Below are positions 1,248-22,986 of a stretch of DNA of 25,882 bases, piece after piece. Every line of letters starts with the position of its first letter. Position 1 is the stretch's first letter. The notes beneath the pieces are model-generated. The model had not been told where the DNA came from. It ran no database searches and saw only the letters and a program-made list of their open reading frames with translations. The translations under genes were made by a program, and so were the position numbers. The stretch spans positions 1 to 25,882 of the IMG/VR virus record IMGVR_UViG_3300001419_000042, one strand, 5' to 3'. The DNA is from a virus.

Positions 1248-4200
1248 TTAAACTACACTAGTTATAATTCCGTCAACTATGGTTACGGTATCACCATCCC
1301 CATTAGTGAACGATCCTGACCACCCTAAGGTTAGTGGGTGTATTTTAGCTATCTCTTCACGAAGATTAATCGCTGGAGAGTATGTTACAGCCTCATTAGC
1401 AGAACCGAGCAAGTAAGACTCACTATTATAACTAATAGAACTAATATCTTGGCTGGTAAGGTTAGCGTCTGAAATATCTCCAACATTTATTAATCCCTGT
1501 ATTTTACAGGCTCCACTGTCTGTTCCTACAAGAGTGGAGTCTGTATATTCATTATAGTCAAGCGCTAGTACGTTGGAAGAAGGAAGAGTACACTTTGCAC
1601 CTTCTTCAAATAACTTCTTCTCTTCGTTGTATATGTCGAGAATCTCTTGGTCTGTTGGGGCTGTTGCTGTTAATCGCCATAGGGCTATACTACCTGTCTC
1701 TAATGCAGTTGCCTTTGTTGCGAAAACACCAAGAAACAATAGTGCGCTTGCGTTATCTAAATTAACGGTATCGGCCGCTGAATATTCATTGACACCATTG
1801 AAAAATATAGATGTAACCCCAGATTCTCTTTTAACGGCTGCAAATATAGTGCTGTTAGTTGAGGCAAGTGATGTTGACACAAAATTGCTTGTTCCGTTAT
1901 AATAAGCCAATGCACCTGTATTCCTTACAGAGAACCGCATTTCAGCTCCAGATACTGTAACATCAGCTCTATGTAAGATCTCTCTCGTAGCTGGTGGTAA
2001 GGATGATAGTTGTAACCACCCCATAACACAAAAGTCACCAGTACCAAAGTCCAGATCAGCAGTATAAGGTTGCTCAATGTAGTTATCAGTAGAGAAGCCA
2101 GAGTAAGCCACAAGCTCTGCTCCGGTTGCTACAGGTGCCTTGGTAAGCTCACCGACTACTTGGAGATCATTATCCTTTACGCAGCGGTCGGCTACGTCTA
2201 TGGACTCTACTACTACATTGTCTATATCACCATTAAAGTCTTCATAACCTTGTATATAGAAGAGTATACCATTCCCGCCCCCTTCCAACACTTCAGTATA
2301 TGTGCCATCTGCTGTTCTTGGTGTACCTATACCAACATCATCTGCAGAAGCACCTACTAAGACCCTTACTGTACCAGCAACATAATTGCTTATTGTGAAT
2401 GTGACACGATACTTTGTACCTACTTCTATGTTACAGCTTTGACGAAGATAACAATTACCCCCTGTCTGGGTGCCATCTAAAGAAGCTACTCCAGACGCTA
2501 TAACCCAACCTGGGCTCCCACTTCCTGAGGTATTCCAAGCCCGATCAGAGGAGAACTCCCCGTTCTCCACTAGGTTCTGGACTGCTTTTACTGTTATATT
2601 GTCATAAAAGTTATGACCTCCATCAGTCAGTTGTCCGTTAGAACACCACACTGAACATGCGGTTGTAGTTGCTTTGAAGGTAGCTGTTAATGTGCCAGAG
2701 GGGTCTGTACCTGCGACAGAGGTCAAGAAGCTACCACCCGTGGCAGTGTCTCTAACTCGCAACCCTGCTTCTGTAAGAGTGCCTAATTCGTAATCTAAGG
2801 ATACTGTGTACACTTGCCCTATTACTGTAGCTATCGCCTGGTATCCAGCTCCGTAAAAAGCTCCGTAATTAGTCACCTTTAACCTTTGGGTATCAACGGT
2901 CAGTGTAGCTGATGCAGCAGTCCACCCTGTAGTATCAGTATCAAAGGTACCATTCTCCACAAGCTCCGTGGTAACATCAGTACCAATACCACCAGCAACA
3001 GTATCAGCAAGAGTCGCCAAGCGGATATCACCTTTCATCCAGCCAGTGTTGTACTCGTCGGTTATGTAGGCTACTGAGCCTTCTGCTGGAGTTGTTGGGT
3101 TTTCTTTCAGGAGTGTTAGGCCTTTTGTATGTCCCATTGACTTGTCATTTGATACAGAGGACAACAAAGTGTCAGCAGACCCTGTGTCTCCGCCAATAAA
3201 AAACAAGTCAGGGGTATTCGATAGTATCTCATAATTTGTGTAAAACGCCAGTGAATTACCCTTAGCATAGTAGTATGTCTCAGTAATATCAGATGTTGGT
3301 ATTGCATATACATGGCACATGTTTATACTAGTTCCAGCATCATTCCCATGTGCCACTCTGATATTATTAGCATTATCGAATGTAATATGGTGTGATTTAC
3401 TTTGATCCCACGTAATATCAACAACAGTCCCCACACCAGCAGGGCCATCAATAACACTCACGCCACCGTCAGTAGCTACAGCGATCGTAGGCACAGCAAT
3501 ACCAGTTTCGGAATCTATGGGAGCATTGTCGAGTATGGTCATTGATACGTCGTTAGCTATGTTATTTACGATTACGAAAGTTGTATTTATCTGAGTCCTA
3601 CCCCCGCCAACAGTATTCCTGCCTGATATTTGTAGGTCATACCGTGTGTATTCTGTGCTTCTAATCAAATGCCCATTATCGGTAATAAAGTTTATTATAT
3701 TTAAACCTATTGTTGTAGTCCCTACACTCAAAACGCCATTAAGTGCAGATATAGTAGTTACCCCATTAGCGGTGGCGACGATCATATATGTGTCAGTAAA
3801 TAATGATGCAAACCGGACATTGAACACCATCCACATAGGAGCAGCAGGATCAGTAAGATCAAAGATTGTAACCTTGTTAGTCTCAGCAACAATAGCAGCA
3901 ACGGCAGGGAACTTACGCGTCTTTCCCCTTGTAGCGGTGTTCAATGTCTCATTGTACCATGAGAGATCTTGGCATCGATCACGCCATGCGCCACCGTCTG
4001 AATCTTTGGTTGTGTCGTAGATGAAGGTATCTACAGTAGCCGCTGTAACTAGTGTTTCTGCTATCTCAGCTATATTAATATCTGCTGCACTGGCTTCCGC
4101 ATCTAAGGCGCTTTGCAGAGAGTCAGCAGCACTAGCAGCAGACTCAGCAGCACTTGTAGAGCTATCCCCAGCGCTACTTAAAGAGTCAGCAGCGCTACTC

Positions 4201-5438
4201 AGGGACTCGGAAGCACTGGCAGCAGACTCAGCAGCACTGGCAGCAGACTCAGCAGCACTGGCAGCGGATTCGGCAGCGCTACTCAGGGACTCGGAAGCAC
4301 TGGCAGCAGACTCAGCAGCACTGGCAGCAGACTCAGCAGCACTGGCAGCGGATTCGGCAGCACTACCTTCAGCGTCCACTAGTGCTGCTGCGATATCGTC
4401 ATGTATTCCTGATATATCGTATGTGTTAATGCTAGTTATGTCTATTTCATCTCCTACGTCTGCTGGGGAGATTAAGGTAAGTACAGAAGCAGCTACTTCA
4501 CTGTTCAACGTGTAGTCTTCATCAAGCCTAAGCTTTCTGGAGTTCATAAATACGAATATGTTATCTTCAGCCGTAGGTTTTGTTATAGAGAAATCAGTCT
4601 GTCCAGCAGAAGCAGTATAGAAATCTGTACTTATAGCATCGCTACGCTCCCCTACAATGATAAGAGAAGCGGCTTCAGCCGCCGATTCTGCAGCACTAGA
4701 GGCTGATGCTGTAGATTCTGCGGCACAGTTAGCGGCGTTGTTCTCGCTAAGAGAAGCATTACTTTCTGAGCTTGCAGCGTTGTCTTCTGAGGACTTAGCT
4801 GCTGCTTCACTGGATGCTGCATTTGTCGCACTATCAGACGCATTAGCCTCGGACTGTGCTGCCTGTGATGCTAGGTCTTCTACATACCCTACATCAAAGG
4901 CTAATAACCAGTAACCTAACGCCAAGTCGTCCTCAAAAGAGTCAGAAGATGTGTGATTACTAAGAGCTACATACCAGTTAGAGTCCTCTCCTTGTACTAA
5001 GTCACTTACAGCATATTCTGTATACCCCAACCACGTACCTCTCCATGCGGCTCTAACATAGTTACTAGATATAACTGACCGCAATTCTTGTATGATGAGA
5101 ATAGCCCGGTCTAAGTCGATTTCTAGCAACTCGGTGTTGAAAGAGCTATTATTAACCCAATCTGTCGGCTGCTCAACTACGGTATCTCTACGTATTTCGA
5201 GGGTTCCTCCAGAGGGCTCAGAAAGTACTGTAACAGTTCCTCCAGCATCCCCATCGCCTAGGAGTGTGACGGTATAATCTAAGGCTTCTCCCTGTGCTAG
5301 TACAGTTCTCTCTCCGTATACGTCAAGTATAGCCACCTCAAGGTCGCCAGAATCCAACACCCTAAATGGGAAGTCATAATCATTGGGGCCTAAGTAGGCG
5401 TAGGTTATTAAAGGCGCTTGCCCTGCTGGTACAGTCAT
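1248..5438 (-). CDS. Multi-domain tail fibre protein, 1396 aa
   Basis: The main host-recognition fibre candidate. Residues 1-130 resemble the T7 gp17-type N-terminal domain that anchors fibres to the tail. Residues 131-183 look like a small carbohydrate-binding module (W-x4-YxxxDLV, then WYVA and W). Residues 184-262 and 355-460 are Ala/Ser/Glu heptad repeats, probably trimeric coiled coil. Residues 470-800 contain a D-S-D-G-G-A-W-R and W-Y-N-E-T-L-N-T-A-T-R-G motif that I associate with phage tail proteins. Two similar jelly-roll-like modules start with LVENG at about 826 and 955, followed by a LamG-like domain (about 1110-1262). The last 26 residues (GWSGSF...GIITSVV) are a common fibre terminus. 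The AAGGAG site seven bases before the ATG fixes the start, whose A is shared with the upstream stop (TAATG). Confidence 0.9.
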   Translation of the reverse strand: MTVPAGQAPLITYAYLGPNDYDFPFRVLDSGDLEVAILDVYGERTVLAQGEALDYTVTLLGDGDAGGTVTVLSEPSGGTLEIRRDTVVEQPTDWVNNSSFNTELLEIDLDRAILIIQELRSVISSNYVRAAWRGTWLGYTEYAVSDLVQGEDSNWYVALSNHTSSDSFEDDLALGYWLLAFDVGYVEDLASQAAQSEANASDSATNAASSEAAAKSSEDNAASSESNASLSENNAANCAAESTASASSAAESAAEAASLIIVGERSDAISTDFYTASAGQTDFSITKPTAEDNIFVFMNSRKLRLDEDYTLNSEVAASVLTLISPADVGDEIDITSINTYDISGIHDDIAAALVDAEGSAAESAASAAESAASAAESAASASESLSSAAESAASAAESAASAAESAASASESLSSAADSLSSAGDSSTSAAESAASAADSLQSALDAEASAADINIAEIAETLVTAATVDTFIYDTTKDSDGGAWRDRCQDLSWYNETLNTATRGKTRKFPAVAAIVAETNKVTIFDLTDPAAPMWMVFNVRFASLFTDTYMIVATANGVTTISALNGVLSVGTTTIGLNIINFITDNGHLIRSTEYTRYDLQISGRNTVGGGRTQINTTFVIVNNIANDVSMTILDNAPIDSETGIAVPTIAVATDGGVSVIDGPAGVGTVVDITWDQSKSHHITFDNANNIRVAHGNDAGTSINMCHVYAIPTSDITETYYYAKGNSLAFYTNYEILSNTPDLFFIGGDTGSADTLLSSVSNDKSMGHTKGLTLLKENPTTPAEGSVAYITDEYNTGWMKGDIRLATLADTVAGGIGTDVTTELVENGTFDTDTTGWTAASATLTVDTQRLKVTNYGAFYGAGYQAIATVIGQVYTVSLDYELGTLTEAGLRVRDTATGGSFLTSVAGTDPSGTLTATFKATTTACSVWCSNGQLTDGGHNFYDNITVKAVQNLVENGEFSSDRAWNTSGSGSPGWVIASGVASLDGTQTGGNCYLRQSCNIEVGTKYRVTFTISNYVAGTVRVLVGASADDVGIGTPRTADGTYTEVLEGGGNGILFYIQGYEDFNGDIDNVVVESIDVADRCVKDNDLQVVGELTKAPVATGAELVAYSGFSTDNYIEQPYTADLDFGTGDFCVMGWLQLSSLPPATREILHRADVTVSGAEMRFSVRNTGALAYYNGTSNFVSTSLASTNSTIFAAVKRESGVTSIFFNGVNEYSAADTVNLDNASALLFLGVFATKATALETGSIALWRLTATAPTDQEILDIYNEEKKLFEEGAKCTLPSSNVLALDYNEYTDSTLVGTDSGACKIQGLINVGDISDANLTSQDISSISYNSESYLLGSANEAVTYSPAINLREEIAKIHPLTLGWSGSFTNGDGDTVTIVDGIITSVV
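4191..4358. repeat. Perfect 84-bp tandem duplication in the fibre coiled coil
   Basis: Positions 4191-4274 and 4275-4358 are identical by direct comparison. Each copy contains four 21-bp subunits coding heptads of the AESAASA/SESLSSA kind (about residues 361-416 of the fibre). Since 84 is a multiple of 3 and of 21, copy-number change would keep both reading frame and heptad phase. Confidence 0.95.
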
Positions 5439-11082: not shown

Positions 11083-12859
11083 TAGTTGCGCCTTGTCGTT
11101 TAGTCTGTAGGATATACTGCTTTTGAAGATACAATTGGTACTTATCGCGTTTAATATCCCGTCGCATAGCTGAATCTTCCATCAACTTAGCGGCTACTTC
11201 TGCCGGATTCGCTGGGTCTAAGCCATACTTAGCTAAGAGGTCTAGCTCGGCGTACTTGTAGACTTTATCTAAATCAACTTCACCCAGTTCACGAGGAGCC
11301 AATTTAGTAATCGAAAGAAGCCCTCCGAAATTTAGCCCTGGAATAGCCCTTAAAGAAGCTTCAGGTATTCTGACCATAGATACGTTTTGTTTAGATAACC
11401 CTTGCGCTTCTAACTCCTGAAGCATCTCCGATTTTACTCGTAATACCGCAGTTGTTGCATTTTCTTTAGGGTTAGTACGCGAGTCGTCTAAGGCTTGATT
11501 GAACCGAGAAGACCAATAGGCTCTTTGGTCCGCTACAGCGCGCTCCATCGTCGCATACGCAATTGCCTCGTCGTCCTGATAAGCAAGATCCGTAGCTGAA
11601 GGTTTAGCTAAGCCGGGAGGAAGGCTAATCATGTTAGTTACGAATGCATTCGCTTCTTTTCGCTGCTGGGTTATATTCAATTTTCGATCGCTAAGCATTC
11701 GCGTATGAAGGGCTTGTCGATCTGCCGCGCTTACATAAACTGGTAATTCCTGGAACAATACGGCGTCAGGGTTATGTGTATATTCAGAAGCTAGTGCTTG
11801 CAGAGCTATATCAGCTCCTGGGTCTGACGGCCTTCCACTTACAAAATCATCAAACAACTTTTCATACTTAATCTGCTCAACTGGGTCGACTATACTGCCA
11901 ATAGCAGATCGATTCCCTGTTGACATGGCGGACCGTAAGACGTTATGGTTATATATTTCTTCTTGAGCTTTATGGTCAGCTGCATTCTGTCGCGCAGCTG
12001 TAGAGATTCGAGAATTATGTGCTAGCATCGCGCTTTCGACCCTGCTTAAAGCAGCTGCAGTTTTCTGAGGGTCTACGTTACTTGCTACGCCTTGCATAAC
12101 ATACTCAGCAGCTAGAGCGAAGTTATTCAAATCGGCCTGCTGAGCCGCTGCCGATAGATAGGCGTCTTCTTTAAGGGCCCGCTTAGTTTTCTCAGCCAAT
12201 TCGGGTTGCGCCGCGTAAAACACATCGACGCTTTCTAAGGTCTCGACTAGCTGAGCATTAAACTCAGCAGGGTCATTAGAGGCCTGTAACATCTTAGTAC
12301 GCTCTTGCTCGAGGCTGTTTTGCTGGATGTTTTTTTCCCAAACCGTCTGCTGCTGAGCTTTATGTTCTGCACTCTTCGATATATAATTGCTAGATACCTG
12401 GTGCAATTTCGGCAGCATCTTGGCTTTAACGGCGTCCCCCGCCCCGGAGATAGCGGAAGCGGCGAGCTCTTTTATTTTTGCTGCGACACTCTGATATGTA
12501 TTAACGGCTTCCTGGCCAGATGTGTACAGATATCCTTGGTCCCCTGACGCTATCGCCATTAATTGGTCTTCATAATCCAGGAGCCTCTGGCTTGCCTCAG
12601 CCGTGTCAACTCGGTCTTGATACTCTAAAGCTGCGCGGGTCATGCTCATGCCAGCTTCAGCTATCTGCTGAATTGTTCTATCAGGCCGCACCTCTGGCAC
12701 AGCCATATTACTCCATTGGGTATTGCCAGCGTTAACATTAACTCGTGGAGCTCTGGTATTCGCGCCTATTGAGCCATCAAGGAGTACGGGACTAAGCCCG
12801 CCGGGGGCCCCGCCCGTATTCATACGCTGCGACGCTAAGTTAAAAGATATGCTTGGCAT
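11072..12859 (-). CDS. Internal virion protein, gp15-like coiled-coil ejection protein, 595 aa
   Basis: Predicted soluble, almost wholly helical and Ala/Gln/Glu-rich. Residues 70-180 (YQDRVDTAEASQRLLDYEDQ, then DQGYLYTSGQEAVNTYQS) match the pattern of podovirus internal core proteins, where a helical repeat contains L-x-x-Y-G/SGxxA followed by long helices. The N-terminal 60 residues are low complexity with Gly, Pro and Asn. The ATG at 12859 shares its A with the stop of the upstream gp14-like gene (TAATG), and the gene overlaps the 1219-residue gene by 11 bases. It should act with these neighbours to form the internal core that is ejected to span the envelope. That role is inferred from family and order. 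Confidence 0.8.
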   Translation of the reverse strand: MPSISFNLASQRMNTGGAPGGLSPVLLDGSIGANTRAPRVNVNAGNTQWSNMAVPEVRPDRTIQQIAEAGMSMTRAALEYQDRVDTAEASQRLLDYEDQLMAIASGDQGYLYTSGQEAVNTYQSVAAKIKELAASAISGAGDAVKAKMLPKLHQVSSNYISKSAEHKAQQQTVWEKNIQQNSLEQERTKMLQASNDPAEFNAQLVETLESVDVFYAAQPELAEKTKRALKEDAYLSAAAQQADLNNFALAAEYVMQGVASNVDPQKTAAALSRVESAMLAHNSRISTAARQNAADHKAQEEIYNHNVLRSAMSTGNRSAIGSIVDPVEQIKYEKLFDDFVSGRPSDPGADIALQALASEYTHNPDAVLFQELPVYVSAADRQALHTRMLSDRKLNITQQRKEANAFVTNMISLPPGLAKPSATDLAYQDDEAIAYATMERAVADQRAYWSSRFNQALDDSRTNPKENATTAVLRVKSEMLQELEAQGLSKQNVSMVRIPEASLRAIPGLNFGGLLSITKLAPRELGEVDLDKVYKYAELDLLAKYGLDPANPAEVAAKLMEDSAMRRDIKRDKYQLYLQKQYILQTKRQGATNAE

Positions 12860-13755
12860 TAGTTAAGAGTGCCCCCGTAATCAAGATCATAGGTAGAAGT
12901 CCCAGTCAGTAGGCTGCCGGAAGAACTACTTCCTACCGGCACGGTTTTTCCGCCATAGTATGACCCTACCGCGCTAGAAGCAGCGCTAAATAACCCTTGG
13001 GTTAAGTTGCTAGAAATCTGCGCCTGATTAGACGAAAACTGCTGTGTAGCTCCAGATATGCCAGCACTCAGCTGATATCCTGCAGTCCGGGTATTAGCTT
13101 GACCAGTTATCGCAGTTTCCATTAAGCTCGCCTGGGCTCCTAGCCTTGCGTTATTGAGAGACATAGCGGCCCCCATTTGGCCCTCGTACATTATTTTTTG
13201 CACCTGCATTTGTCCTTGCCAGGAGCCTTGAGCCATGGCGTTATGTATTTTAGCGGCTCCTATATCTGCGTTATGGCGTATCACGAAGGCATCCATAGCC
13301 TCCTGACTTCTTTGCGCCACGACTACGTCTTGGTGCGATCCTTCGCCTATAGTTATCCCTGAGCTAGCTTGAGCCGCAACTATTTCACCGCGCTCCCTTG
13401 CTCGCATACGCTCTAGGCTAGCCTGCTCCAGCCCCTCGGCTTCCCAAAGAAGTCGGAGCTCTTCTTCTAGGAGCAGATTATTATACGCTACGGTATCTTC
13501 GACTTGCTGTGCGTTAAATGCTGCAACATCTAAGGCCGCTGAGGCATTCATATTAGCAGCTTTCATTTGCATAGCGGCGTTAAATATACCAAGCATTGTT
13601 TGCGACTGTATATTGGCCATATTATTATTATAACCCATTTGGGCGTTATAATTATTCCAGGCTTGTTGCTCGGCGTTTTGAGCTGAAGCTTGGTTAGCCG
13701 ATACTACAGAGCCGACAGCGGACACAGCGGCCATAGCTATTAAAGGCCAGACCAT
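12859..13755 (-). CDS. Internal virion protein, gp14-like, 298 aa
   Basis: The N-terminus has a short hydrophobic stretch (VWPLIAMAAVSAVGSVV, 2-18) followed by a long Ala/Gln/Asn/Met-rich helix. Around residues 118-142 is RARERGEIVAAQASSGI followed by GEGS, a signature I associate with gp14-type ejection proteins of podoviruses. In T7 gp14 enters the outer membrane on infection. The C-terminus is Gly/Ser-rich. A GGAGGT site lies nine bases upstream of the ATG, and the ATG shares its A with the nozzle gene stop (TAATG). A minor capsid or tail component is the main alternative. Confidence 0.83.
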   Translation of the reverse strand: MVWPLIAMAAVSAVGSVVSANQASAQNAEQQAWNNYNAQMGYNNNMANIQSQTMLGIFNAAMQMKAANMNASAALDVAAFNAQQVEDTVAYNNLLLEEELRLLWEAEGLEQASLERMRARERGEIVAAQASSGITIGEGSHQDVVVAQRSQEAMDAFVIRHNADIGAAKIHNAMAQGSWQGQMQVQKIMYEGQMGAAMSLNNARLGAQASLMETAITGQANTRTAGYQLSAGISGATQQFSSNQAQISSNLTQGLFSAASSAVGSYYGGKTVPVGSSSSGSLLTGTSTYDLDYGGTLN

Positions 13756-19298: not shown

Positions 19299-21047
19299 TT
19301 ATAGCATCCCCAGTTCTTGGGCTAATTGCTGAGTTTCCATATTTATTTGGCCAGCTTCAGCCGCGGTTTTACGCGTAGTAGCATCCTGTACATCGACTCC
19401 CGATTGTAATTGAGCTACTTGAGCTTGTTGCTCGGCTTTCTGCTGCTGAGCTTGGGCTTGAGCTCTTTTACGCCTTAGGTCTTCAACTTCTGATTGAGGC
19501 CTTAATACTCCCAAAGCTACTCCTGAAATATCAGCCATTTCCCGGGCTGCTTCATCGACATTTATATTATCCAATATCGTCTGATCGAATTGAGCCGCTT
19601 GGCCGACAAAACCCATGAAGGAATTTATCCCGTTCATAGCTATTCCGCGTTGCGCCGTGGCCAAAGGACTAATCATAGATATACTATAGTCCCCGGCTAT
19701 CTCAGCTAATTCTGGCGATAACGGTTGGAACCGCTCCTTGCGTAACATTATGTTAAAACAGCGCTCGATTACGGGCTGTAAAAACTCATGCTGCAGCCTT
19801 TCGATCACTGGTCCAAGCCGCAGCATCTTTTCCTGCTCTTGCACATTCACTTGAGTGGCCTTAAGCGGAGAAGCATTAGGGTCACGAGATGCCGTTAAAA
19901 ATATATCGTTGAAAAAATTCCTTTGTATACGCTGCTCAACTCTTTCAATGGCCGCACTTACGCCCTGAAAGTCGAAACGAACTTGCATAACAGGAGTTAT
20001 AACTTCATTAGGGTTGGAGTAATAGTTCAACCCCCCGGGCATCGTATTGGACTTACCTCTCATACGCGCAGGTATATTCAAGGGCGGCGCGATGGTTTTA
20101 TGAGTGGCCATTAGAAACGACTTTTCCATCTCCTGAAGTCTTCGTATATGCGGAATAGCCCTTGAGCCGGGGCCTATACCATATATATCGGATCCTATGG
20201 TTCCCCATCGCGCTATCGGGTATGGAAACTCGTAGAACCCTCGGACTTCTAACGGCTCATTAGGAGTAGAATTCTGGACCGCCCTGCTGGCTGAGTTACC
20301 AGAGGCCACTTCGTATACCACTTTAGTAAATGGCATCACACCGTGAGGCCTACGAACAGTATATTCTACCAATATGACGTTAGCTACGTCTATACCTGCT
20401 TTATTATTCGAGACAATATCTTTACACGATTTACTAGCCTTATCGGGATACGATTCTACGACTTGTCTAGGAGTCTTAATGATAGTCCTAAAGAACACTT
20501 CCGCGCGGCCGTCCGCTCCTACAGCAAAGGCATATTCGCCGGCTGTTAGCAATTCGAATCGGAACGGATTAGAATCGGTATTAGAATCCTCTCCTACATA
20601 CATACTTCCGGTGCCGTACCCGGCGTACTCTATGTAGAACGAATTGATGATACTATAAAAATTACTTTGGTGTAGCGCGGCATTCAGCCTTTTTTCACAG
20701 TCTTGAAGCCAAGCTTTCAACGGCTCAAAGCCTTTAATATTGTCATCTGCCCAGTCGAGCTTGAACCAGGGCCTTGAGGGCGAAGTTAACCCCGAATGCA
20801 TCCCTGAAGTGAGAACATATAGGGCGTCTTCGCCTATAGTATTTATCACTTTTTTAGTCGTCAAGCTTCTCTTGCGTGGCTTAGAATACACCTGGTAGAT
20901 ACCGCGACCGGGGGTAAGGTACTCCGTAATCATACGCCAGTCAGATTCCCATTCGACTCTCTCACTACGAGCTTCTTGGTACGCCGCCATAACCTTAGTA
21001 TAGCTAAGAGGGTGCTCTGGACTAGTTATGTCTATGTCCTTTTTCAT
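19299..21047 (-). CDS. Portal (head-to-tail connecting) protein, 582 aa
   Basis: Forms the dodecameric ring at one capsid vertex for DNA entry and exit, and docks the terminase. Typical of the podovirus head-tail connector family: an N-terminal helical part (YQEARSERVEWESDWRMITE), HSGLTSPSRPWFKL (84-97), NSFYIEYAGYGTGSMYV (about 136-152), GIGPGSRAIPHIRRLQEMEK (about 290-309), and the late helix with RLGPVIERLQHEFLQPVIER. The C-terminal 60 residues are Gln/Ala-rich and probably form a coiled barrel or flexible end. The length is normal. The ATG overlaps the preceding gene by four bases (ATGA). Confidence 0.93.
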   Translation of the reverse strand: MKKDIDITSPEHPLSYTKVMAAYQEARSERVEWESDWRMITEYLTPGRGIYQVYSKPRKRSLTTKKVINTIGEDALYVLTSGMHSGLTSPSRPWFKLDWADDNIKGFEPLKAWLQDCEKRLNAALHQSNFYSIINSFYIEYAGYGTGSMYVGEDSNTDSNPFRFELLTAGEYAFAVGADGRAEVFFRTIIKTPRQVVESYPDKASKSCKDIVSNNKAGIDVANVILVEYTVRRPHGVMPFTKVVYEVASGNSASRAVQNSTPNEPLEVRGFYEFPYPIARWGTIGSDIYGIGPGSRAIPHIRRLQEMEKSFLMATHKTIAPPLNIPARMRGKSNTMPGGLNYYSNPNEVITPVMQVRFDFQGVSAAIERVEQRIQRNFFNDIFLTASRDPNASPLKATQVNVQEQEKMLRLGPVIERLQHEFLQPVIERCFNIMLRKERFQPLSPELAEIAGDYSISMISPLATAQRGIAMNGINSFMGFVGQAAQFDQTILDNINVDEAAREMADISGVALGVLRPQSEVEDLRRKRAQAQAQQQKAEQQAQVAQLQSGVDVQDATTRKTAAEAGQINMETQQLAQELGML

Positions 21048-21364
21048 TCGGTTCCCAAGAGACTGGTATTCATTTCAGTATCTTCGTCTTCATCGGTAAG
21101 TGAAGAGTGTATAGTATCCATACGCCCTTTGCGTTCTATAGCAGCTTCCTCAGCTTTAGCCTTATTGCCTAGCTCTTCCATTTGAGCTGACCAATCTACT
21201 GGTTCTGCTGTAGCTACCTCGGGTGGAGGCACGCTCATAGGCATCATGGGCTGTTGATTAGACTGCATCATCATTTGCATTAGCCCCATCATCGCTCCCA
21301 TGTCCATACCACTTGACTGTGGTACTGCCGCAGGAGGCGGAGCTGTTCCACCTTTTCCGCCCAT
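21044..21364 (-). CDS. Glycine-capped, Met/Gln/Pro-rich small protein 3, 106 aa
   Basis: Starts MGGKGG, contains a Met/Gln/Pro low-complexity stretch (about 20-48), then a short charged helix and an acidic segment, and ends in NTSLLGTE. Both ends resemble those of the two preceding proteins. A TAGGAG site lies seven bases upstream, and the gene starts one base after the previous stop. The tail end overlaps the portal start. Function is unknown. Position suggests a capsid-interior or portal-associated minor protein. The disordered middle means homology searches will be uninformative beyond the ends. Confidence 0.75.
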   Translation of the reverse strand: MGGKGGTAPPPAAVPQSSGMDMGAMMGLMQMMMQSNQQPMMPMSVPPPEVATAEPVDWSAQMEELGNKAKAEEAAIERKGRMDTIHSSLTDEDEDTEMNTSLLGTE

Positions 21365-21365
21365 T

Positions 21366-22061
21366 TTATGCTCCTAGTATCGATGTGTTAGCCCCTAGGG
21401 CTGCCTCATCGTCTATTAAGGTTTTCTTAGCCGACTTAGGGGTTATGCTGCCCCCAGCTTTCTGCTCGCCTACTGACCCTGGGGCTTCAGCCTCTACGCC
21501 TTTGCCTCGCCAGATAGTCTGTTCAAAATCTCCAGCCCCAATTTCTCCGAACGACGCTTCTAGCTCTGACTGATTCCCTTCTGACCAGAGTGAACTGAAG
21601 TAATTTGATATGCGCTCATTCTTCAATTCGTCCGTCATGCTATAATCCACCCCCATGAGCGCGGCATTGGCTTTCTCTTGGGCTATTTTCTCAGACACGT
21701 AAGTCGTCGCGGAATTGGCCGCATCGAAATACCCGCCTATCATAGCATCTCGCTTGCTTGTAAGACCCGCAATACGCGCCTCTTCCATAGCTTCAGCTTG
21801 CGCAGCTTGCATCTGAGCATACGCATTAGCTTGGCTTTCTTGGCCTTGAGAAAACATCATCTTCATGTTTTCCATGGCCACTTTTTCATTATGCGCATCG
21901 AGGTAGCCCTGAGCTACATAGTCATAGCCTTCCATGTCGGGAGTCCATCCGACAAATCCAGACATGCCTTTATTGCCTTCCTTCATGCTTCGGCCCAGAT
22001 TATAGGCATCCGCTGAAGTATACTGTGGAGCTGAACTCCCTCCTTTTCCACCGCCACCCAT
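21366..22061 (-). CDS. Glycine-capped small protein 2, helical, 231 aa
   Basis: Begins MGGGGKGGSSAP, followed by a Tyr/Asp-rich stretch, then a long helix rich in Ala, Glu, Met and Gln (about 55-140), probably a coiled coil. The last third is polar and ends ALGANTSILGA. The ATG shares its A with the stop of the preceding protein (TAATG). It lies before the portal gene in the packaging/head module. A minor virion role is plausible but I do not recognise a defined family. The shared ends with its neighbours are the most informative feature. Confidence 0.77.
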   Translation of the reverse strand: MGGGGKGGSSAPQYTSADAYNLGRSMKEGNKGMSGFVGWTPDMEGYDYVAQGYLDAHNEKVAMENMKMMFSQGQESQANAYAQMQAAQAEAMEEARIAGLTSKRDAMIGGYFDAANSATTYVSEKIAQEKANAALMGVDYSMTDELKNERISNYFSSLWSEGNQSELEASFGEIGAGDFEQTIWRGKGVEAEAPGSVGEQKAGGSITPKSAKKTLIDDEAALGANTSILGA

Positions 22062-22420
22062 TATTCGTCGTCCTCTGTTAGAAGTGAAGTAGTTTGTTTT
22101 GGCTTAGGAGCAACCCTACGTTCAGCCTGCGCTGTTTGGCCAGTTTTATGATACTGAGACAGATCTTTGGCTTTTTCTATATTGGCGCTTTGGGCGTAAT
22201 AATCTTTCCACTGCTGCTCATATTGCTTGTTGCCCGCTTCAGTACCGAGAACCTTATCTATTTTTGGGGCTACTAGAGATGTAACAGGGTCCCACTTTCG
22301 GGTCTCCGGTATTACATATCCCACTGGGTTCATAATGGCTTCTACGGTACCCATATTGCCTTTACCGCCGCTACCGCCTTTACCTGATGAACTATAGCCT
22401 GCTGAACCGCCGCCGCCCAT
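22061..22420 (-). CDS. Glycine-capped small protein 1, 119 aa
   Basis: I place the start at 22420, not at the in-frame ATG seven codons upstream. A GGGAGAG site lies six bases before 22420, the ATG there shares its A with the upstream stop, and the resulting start MGGGGSAG matches the next two proteins. The product has a Gly/Ser/Lys-rich first 28 residues, a middle containing NPVGYVIPETRKWDP, and a lysine/glutamine-rich end finishing TTSLLTEDDE. Function is unknown. It is probably a minor virion or assembly protein. Confidence 0.75.
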   Translation of the reverse strand: MGGGGSAGYSSSGKGGSGGKGNMGTVEAIMNPVGYVIPETRKWDPVTSLVAPKIDKVLGTEAGNKQYEQQWKDYYAQSANIEKAKDLSQYHKTGQTAQAERRVAPKPKQTTSLLTEDDE

Positions 22421-22986
22421 TAGAAACTCTCCCGTGTGCATACTGATATCATACAGTCAGTAGGCTTTCCGTTATATATAATACCACTTGGCAAAATGCC
22501 CTGCTTCTTGTACCCGATCTTTAGCGCAAATATACAAGCGGCGCGATTAACGAGCGGCGTCAAGCCGTACAAAGCATCTAAGAAATAGCCACTGCCATCC
22601 GGGCGTTCCCTAGTTAGTGTGTACTCCGCAGCAAATCGGCCTATCGCTATCCGCTTCTTGGTGTCAATATCCGGGGAGGTACTGAAGTGCGACTGTGCTG
22701 CCCTCCCTGTAAACCCCTCTAAGGTGAACTCCCCAAGCAGCTCTCCTTCTTCTTCGACGAAGTACATCTGCTTGCCTAGGCGCTGAATAACTTCTAATAC
22801 GTCTAGCCACTGAGGGTTTTCTATGTCGCTAAACCTATACTTAAGAGTGTCTTCTAAAGACATTCTCTGGAAATAGTACTGCACCTGGTCAGGAAGTAAC
22901 GTAAGGAGAGGAGTCACACAGAATGCAGAAGGAGAATTGTGTGCCGGTTTAGTAGAGGATGTAGCTGTCTGAGATGGCGCATTCAT
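22420..22986 (-). CDS. GNAT-like (acyl-CoA N-acyltransferase fold) phage protein, 188 aa
   Basis: After a Ser/Thr-rich start (1-22), the protein has a beta-strand/helix pattern: MYFVEEEGELLGEFTLEGF (about 74-92), then RIAIGRFAAEYTL, and a C-terminal LTPLVNRAACIFALKIGYKKQGILP (about 140-164). This last part resembles the acetyl-CoA-binding motif of GNAT enzymes (TP-x-N-x6-A-x3-K-x-G-Y/F). Similar proteins lie next to terminase or portal genes in other podoviruses and may be structural with no catalytic role. It overlaps the large terminase stop by four bases. Catalysis is not shown. A virion-assembly function is equally possible. Confidence 0.75.
   Translation of the reverse strand: MNAPSQTATSSTKPAHNSPSAFCVTPLLTLLPDQVQYYFQRMSLEDTLKYRFSDIENPQWLDVLEVIQRLGKQMYFVEEEGELLGEFTLEGFTGRAAQSHFSTSPDIDTKKRIAIGRFAAEYTLTRERPDGSGYFLDALYGLTPLVNRAACIFALKIGYKKQGILPSGIIYNGKPTDCMISVCTRESF

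Follow-up and report, generated by a model that had tools for sequence, protein, structure and literature searches.

Shared terminal motifs on three small proteins encoded beside a podophage portal gene and on a gp14-like core protein

The window analyzed here, i.e. the whole 25,882-base stretch of virus record IMGVR_UViG_3300001419_000042, is from an epsilon15/BPP-1-type podophage. Between a GNAT-like gene and the portal gene it encodes three adjacent proteins, hereafter P1, P2, and P3, with unrelated middles, glycine-rich starts (start tag), and ends carrying a (T/S)x(L/I)L motif (end tag). Both tags were kept in relatives of the three proteins and were nearly specific to them within the head/tail module, and the end tag recurred on a gp14-like internal core protein. 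Our preferred reading, at a probability of roughly 0.55, is that P1–P3 are small, partly disordered virion proteins of the portal and ejection core, with a role like that of T7 gp6.7 and gp7.3, and that the tags are short docking motifs. The three genes and their tags are located as follows.

22061..22420, minus strand: P1, 119 amino acids, start MGGGGSAG, end TTSLLTEDDE
22397..22420, minus strand: start tag of P1
22064..22093, minus strand: end tag of P1, TTSLLTEDDE
21366..22061, minus strand: P2, 231 amino acids, start MGGGGKGG, end NTSILGA
22038..22061, minus strand: start tag of P2
21369..21389, minus strand: end tag of P2, NTSILGA
21044..21364, minus strand: P3, 106 amino acids, start MGGKGG, proline/methionine-rich middle, bipartite tail GRMDTIHSSLTDEDE...NTSLLGTE of the PHROG 831 type
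21347..21364, minus strand: start tag of P3
21047..21127, minus strand: bipartite tail of P3

Conservation of the terminal motifs

In the translations of the open reading frames (ORFs), the three starts and three ends read letter for letter as given in the first-pass annotation, which had also pointed out that the start of P1 matches only from 22420. The longest ORF of P1 begins at 22441. The start at 22420 is supported, since its ATG has an upstream GGGAG and a TAATG overlap with the stop of the preceding gene; no such upstream site is found at the ATG at 22441.

Scans of viral contigs based on the portal yielded 11 and 79 loci, and one contig (L002/L013/L017) has the window's genes at 100%. 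With iterated profiles, 71 P3, 68 P2, 48 GNAT-like, and 10 P1 proteins were recovered from the 79 loci. P3 ends at the portal start in nearly all of them, with P2 just ahead of P3. Dereplication of the families at 80% left 10 P1, 51 P2, and 53 P3 proteins, and removal of ORFs cut by contig ends reduced these to 10, 48, and 48.

In this dereplicated set, the Gly/Lys-rich start tag was present in 7/10 P1, 31/48 P2, and 34/48 P3 proteins compared to 1/634 other ORFs, and the loose end tag (T/S)x(L/I)L in 10/10, 42/48, and 32/48, respectively, compared to 65/634. Both tags occurred together in 7/10 P1, 27/48 P2, and 24/48 P3 proteins and in none of the 634 other ORFs, a background that omits nine unclassified ORFs between the GNAT and portal genes. 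The regular expressions for the tags were picked after the sequences had been seen. As the loci are related by descent, p-values are only indicative. Some first genes of the cluster were missed by the P1 profile; those in L008/L027 carry both tags (e.g., MGGKGSMGQ...GSLLGGSEEDDR), and those in L024 and L087/L088 the start tag only.

The earlier statement that the middles are unrelated agrees with the comparison of the P2 and P3 profiles, which aligned over the first dozen residues only (78.8%, E 1.7e-5). Conserved starts and ends on either side of unalignable middles argue that the ends are kept as peptides and that the middles are not common. The glycine codons of the start tag are mixed (88 GGT, 83 GGA, 83 GGC, and 21 GGG) and 86 of 88 first 18-mers are distinct, which indicates that selection acts on the amino acids. 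A nucleotide-level reason for the glycine codons, connected with translation start, was ruled out by this codon variation.

P2 and P3 have a second TxL(L)-plus-acidic stretch ahead of the final tag. Many tags end in LGA, LGV, or LGG; in many others the motif runs on into acidic or other residues (SLLTEDDE, SLLVEE), and it does not always stand at the very C-terminus. In two loci, P2 and P3 are joined in one ORF (L048, 6-1112, with the internal MGGKGS start still visible, and L036, 3095-4366), which could be true fusions or result from a stop lost in assembly. The tags as such were not found in print within the literature searched (motif letters; titles and abstract starts), which is no proof of their absence.

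Two side observations concern these families. At L092 303-1275, P2 is split into two overlapping ORFs, probably by a frameshift. The sole relative from a genome collection (L164) is a 7 kb contig in a Desulfomonile metagenome-assembled genome, with P2- and P3-like ORFs and a portal; this was not taken as a host assignment.

The end tag on a gp14-like core protein

Outside P1–P3, the end tag was found on the following protein.

12859..13755, minus strand: gp14-like internal core protein, 298 amino acids, assigned by PF24072 (below cut-off), phrog_418 (in relatives), and a structure model
12901..12918, minus strand: GSLLTG (read SGSLLTG) near its end

Plus-strand proteins of at least 90 amino acids in the 79 loci were clustered, and the last 14 residues were tested in families of eight or more members. 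The end tag exceeded the background (9/452) only in the joint P2 and P3 cluster (49/101), in P1 (6/10), and in the gp14-like family (13/34, p 3e-11), with ends such as GAGSSLLTSP, GTGSSLLSS, YGSLLTN, DSLLTS, and NSLLASK. No enrichment was observed for the portal (3/58), scaffold (1/52), large terminase (0/39), capsid (0/36), nozzle-position (0/35), or GNAT (1/35) families.

The window protein matched PF24072 with 23.8 bits, under the curated cut-off of 27 bits, and 4/33 relatives matched it at E 0.01; phrog_418, the internal virion protein family of epsilon15 gp14, was matched by 10/33 relatives. The structure model superimposed on 8e4g_a (Z 12.3, 1.6 Å over 127 residues) and 9jz0_0 (Z 11.9, 1.5 Å over 119 residues, TM score 0.89 on the target), both taken as T7 gp14 in its ejected state from the entry title, the residue range, and PMC11784390. 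Unrelated long-helix chains reached similar Z values, but with root-mean-square deviations of at least 7 Å. Judged by the model, the protein at 12859-13755 is predicted to have the two-helix fold of ejected gp14. T7 gp14 and epsilon15 gp14 (phrog_805 and phrog_418) share this fold; the window protein is longer and shares its end tag with P1–P3 in its clade, whereas the T7 and epsilon15 proteins are untagged. The gp14-like profile does not align with that of P2.

The end tag on the gp14-like protein, together with the specificity of the tags, points to the portal and ejection core rather than the capsid shell. The first-pass annotation had suggested a common assembly tag that might bind a portal or the capsid interior. 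The idea of a common tag gained support from its retention on proteins with different middles, its near-specificity in the head/tail module, and its recurrence on the gp14-like protein. Of the two sites, the portal side is favored; capsid-interior binding was set aside as the main explanation, the scaffold and capsid families being without the tag and the gp14 core protein being indicated instead.

The P3 tail in epsilon15/BPP-1-like phages

P3 of the window itself matched no family, and 23/44 P3 relatives matched phrog_831 (best 4.2e-7). In hhalign, the P3 family aligned with 12 PHROG 831-type proteins at 90.3% (E 1.5e-6), over the tail only. By profile comparison, the P3 tail is thus assigned to PHROG 831, the epsilon15 gp3 family of unknown function, which includes epsilon15 gp3 (6.2e-34) and both Skadi-7 proteins upstream of the portal (3.4e-10 and 3.2e-4). 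The two groups have in common a tail of the form GRxxTILTx... followed by (K)(S/T)LLG at the end, and a gene placed between those of terminase and portal; in epsilon15 this gene immediately precedes the portal gene. P3 differs in its greater length, in an acidic DEE stretch where GxxG stands in the others, and in its start (MGGKGG instead of MCxxxKP). It is also accompanied by P1 and P2, neither of which was seen in epsilon15.

Of 19 named epsilon15/BPP-1-like phages, 13 encode a protein with the bipartite tail between terminase and portal: epsilon15, BIP-1 (Bbp22 of BPP-1), Skadi-7, DC33, Ab31, BUCT711, Usaquen, PfDIW6, Mel-JY33, 1.021.A, RapA, AF, and ct3Et533. The protein at this place in Pseudomonas phage AF has a PHROG 831 tail (3.3e-6), and its start weakly matches the T7 gp7.3 family phrog_1320 (0.0088). 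A scan of viral contigs with STxLTGPQG returned 10 stretches.

In ct3Et533 the protein is an unannotated ORF (L207 2244-2492) ending in KTLLGQ. Limnohabitans phage DC33 (L197, PQ492659) is filed under Inoviridae despite a genome of 39 kb and a portal like that of the window.

MGGKGG starts in other phage groups

A scan of contigs for MGGKGG gave 65 stretches with 66 ORFs, 12 of which had a portal flag, set with a portal profile that was built on the window's clade and misses other portals. In 60 newly fetched MGGKGG loci with 447 unique ORFs, PPxYW stood near the end of 11/46 start-tagged and 2/401 untagged proteins; as the start tag was the criterion for choosing these loci, the comparison is informative for the end only. 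L096, L101, L128, L130, L131, and L145 encode MGGKGG proteins, several in tandem, with the common end PPxYW, often ...TTQT. Adjacent proteins of this kind have different middles and lie near a 230-residue MCDPIS protein, which resembles gp14 by place and start only and has no Pfam or PHROG match. In L096 and L128, the neighborhood of the PPxYW proteins includes core-position genes that belong to another phage group and have no Pfam or PHROG name.

These loci support a start tag common to several groups and an end tag particular to each. We tentatively suggest, as a possibility with the odds against it, that podophages sort small cargo onto the portal and ejection core by a two-ended peptide code, in which unrelated middles could be swapped as new injected proteins. 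As part of the same tentative proposal, the Gly/Lys start would be used across unrelated groups and the end would be SLLG in the window's clade, LTGPxG...TLLG in epsilon15/BPP-1, and PPxYW...TTQT in a third group.

Further MGGKGG proteins, of 114-120 amino acids and with NLDSPQIEQPDYAP-like ends, were seen in L127, L105, L098, L120, L132, and L150; a portal gene comes next in four of these loci, recognized by profile in L127 and L120 and by look in L105 and L098. Long proteins with this start are encoded in L109 (1360-4311, 983 amino acids) and L129 (892 amino acids); the one in L109 is followed by a portal gene, again recognized by profile.

Genomic context

All main genes of the window are on the minus strand. 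The genes around P1–P3 are listed below.

24410-22983, minus strand: large terminase, first in reading direction
22420..22986, minus strand: GNAT-like protein, 188 amino acids, upstream of P1; family profile matches GNAT structure 3g8w (E 1.6e-4)
19299..21047, minus strand: portal, PF12236 head-to-tail connecting protein (8.4e-113)

P1 overlaps the stop of the GNAT-like gene as TAATG, P2 overlaps P1 in the same manner, and the P3 gene shares 4 bases with the start of the portal gene; by these overlaps, the genes from GNAT-like to portal look like one translationally coupled set. After the portal follow a 95-residue protein, a 201-residue protein with a PHROG match to protease (scaffold position), the capsid protein of the epsilon15 gp7 family (PF20911, 8.3e-105), tail genes, the gp14-like protein, and large core-position proteins. 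An Ala/Ser repeat stretch (SAAESAASAAES) was noted at 4021-4515 opposite ORF 1248-5438, in a fibre-position protein.

The GNAT-like family matched Pfam GNAT weakly, in 2 and 1 of 28 members. A GNAT-type gene adjoins the small protein upstream in phage AF (annotated), and GNAT-looking proteins were found by eye upstream of the small protein in BIP-1, DC33, and L118. In the T7-like phage PCW2, an annotated GNAT adjoins gp6.7. PHROG 4177 joins the AF GNAT to epsilon15 gp13, which also matches phrog_308, an internal virion protein; hhalign of the window's GNAT-like protein with gp13 gave 2.4%.

Proposed function

For T7, PMC11784390 describes twelve gp6.7 chains that ring the portal barrel via residues 2-15 and contact gp15, gp14 bridging portal and core, and six gp7.3 chains anchored on the nozzle by residues 84-98, with the basic N-terminus along the DNA. 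According to the same source, gp14 and gp6.7 exit early and build an outer-membrane channel, and host proteases degrade gp6.7 and gp7.3. gp6.7 and gp7.3 exemplify an established mode of working at this place, in which a small extended protein is held by a short segment at one of its ends. For the T7-like phage Peru-2, a virion protein similar in position and size to gp6.7/gp7.3 was detected by mass spectrometry (PMC13320782).

The genes of gp6.7 (phrog_1391, DUF5476) and gp7.3 (phrog_1320) are both upstream of the portal gene. gp6.7 is small and extended and acts with gp14 at the portal barrel (PMC11784390); it has no SLLG end. gp7.3, also small, starts with MGKK and is anchored by its C-terminal peptide, but its end is another motif without SLLG, and P1–P3 of the window have no direct phrog_1320 match (E 0.1).

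P1–P3 fit the T7 mode by place, size, basic glycine-rich starts, the end tag shared with gp14, and the low-confidence ends of the P2 model. This model consists of a long helix (46-136) and two short helices, with a predicted local distance difference test (pLDDT) score of ~50 at both ends. Foldseek gave no match for P2 at E <= 0.001 in the PDB or the viral set; the model is confident in the helices only.

As a core protein that is presumed to enter bacteria by injection carries the same end tag, the tags probably dock P1–P3 onto the phage's internal injection machine. In the proposed mechanism, the Gly/Lys-rich start and the SLL(G) end would be short linear motifs that dock on a site repeated on the portal barrel, the core, or the tail nozzle; the same end motif would bring the gp14-like ejection protein to the same place. 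The end tag would then bind a site common to gp14 and P1–P3, most likely on the portal barrel, core, or nozzle. P1–P3 may be loaded along with the core at head assembly, may bridge portal and core or hold the DNA end, and would exit ahead of the genome, together with gp14. We infer their presence in the virion, their binding partner, and their ejection.

Several observations weigh against this reading. With the regular expressions used, one of the tags is missing from about half of the P2 and P3 proteins. The end tag was found in 0/12 gp15-position and 1/12 gp16-position proteins (11 longer records and the window), and gp14 of epsilon15 and of Skadi-7 are without it. In six of the 19 named phages (LS06, MEP301, K227, Rostov 6, BUCT709, and ZP6), no tagged protein is encoded in the interval from terminase to portal. 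Against gp6.7, hhalign detected no homology, with values of 0.7% for the P3 family and 2.6% for the PHROG 831 set; on these profile comparisons, we do not place P1–P3 in the gp6.7 family. Nothing credible matched P2, P3, or epsilon15 gp3 in PDB searches, and virion proteomics or a structure of a tagged protein was not found in the papers searched.

Alternative explanations

Alternatively, though we consider this unlikely, the tags might serve as cargo labels that bring P1–P3 and gp14 into the head: the scaffolding protein or the inner procapsid face would recognize them for loading, and no lasting contact with portal or nozzle would follow. Such signals would account for the same restriction to P1–P3 and the gp14-like family, and the acidic residues in the last 25 positions (mean counts of 5.5 in P1, 4.8 in P3, and 4.0 in P2 vs. 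3.4 in 653 other proteins) could suit a transient scaffold contact. However, the gp15- and gp16-position core proteins, which also need loading, lack the tag, and the genes cluster at the portal, not at the scaffold.

The first-pass annotation had also raised an ancient duplication of one tagged gene with replacement of the middles. That the ends are a mere relic of it or a recombination hinge, and not a binding tag, appears rather improbable. The adjacency of the three genes, the alignment of P2 and P3 at the start only, and the P2–P3 fusions in L036 and L048 would agree with it, but codon choice is free while the amino acids of the ends are conserved, and the gp14-like protein, which is not adjacent and whose profile does not align with P2, has the end tag as well. 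The duplication in itself would not conflict with a tag function.

The position between terminase and portal would also suit non-virion assembly or packaging factors unrelated to ejection; given that the gp14-like core protein carries the end tag too and that the T7 proteins encoded at the corresponding place are virion proteins, we regard this as very improbable. Least credible are degradation signals, i.e. hydrophobic C-termini by which host proteases clear the proteins after ejection, for which the frequent LGA, LGV, or LGG ends and the proteolysis of T7 gp6.7 and gp7.3 (PMC11784390) would speak, but against which stand the many tags that continue into acidic or other residues.

Implications

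How podophages choose the proteins that ride beside the portal and are injected before the DNA is, to our knowledge, not settled. If docking of P1–P3 at the portal and ejection core is true, the tag shared by gp14 and the small proteins would be a sequence handle for finding such proteins and would define a testable docking site. It may also provide a way of loading marker cargo for injection studies in laboratory phages.

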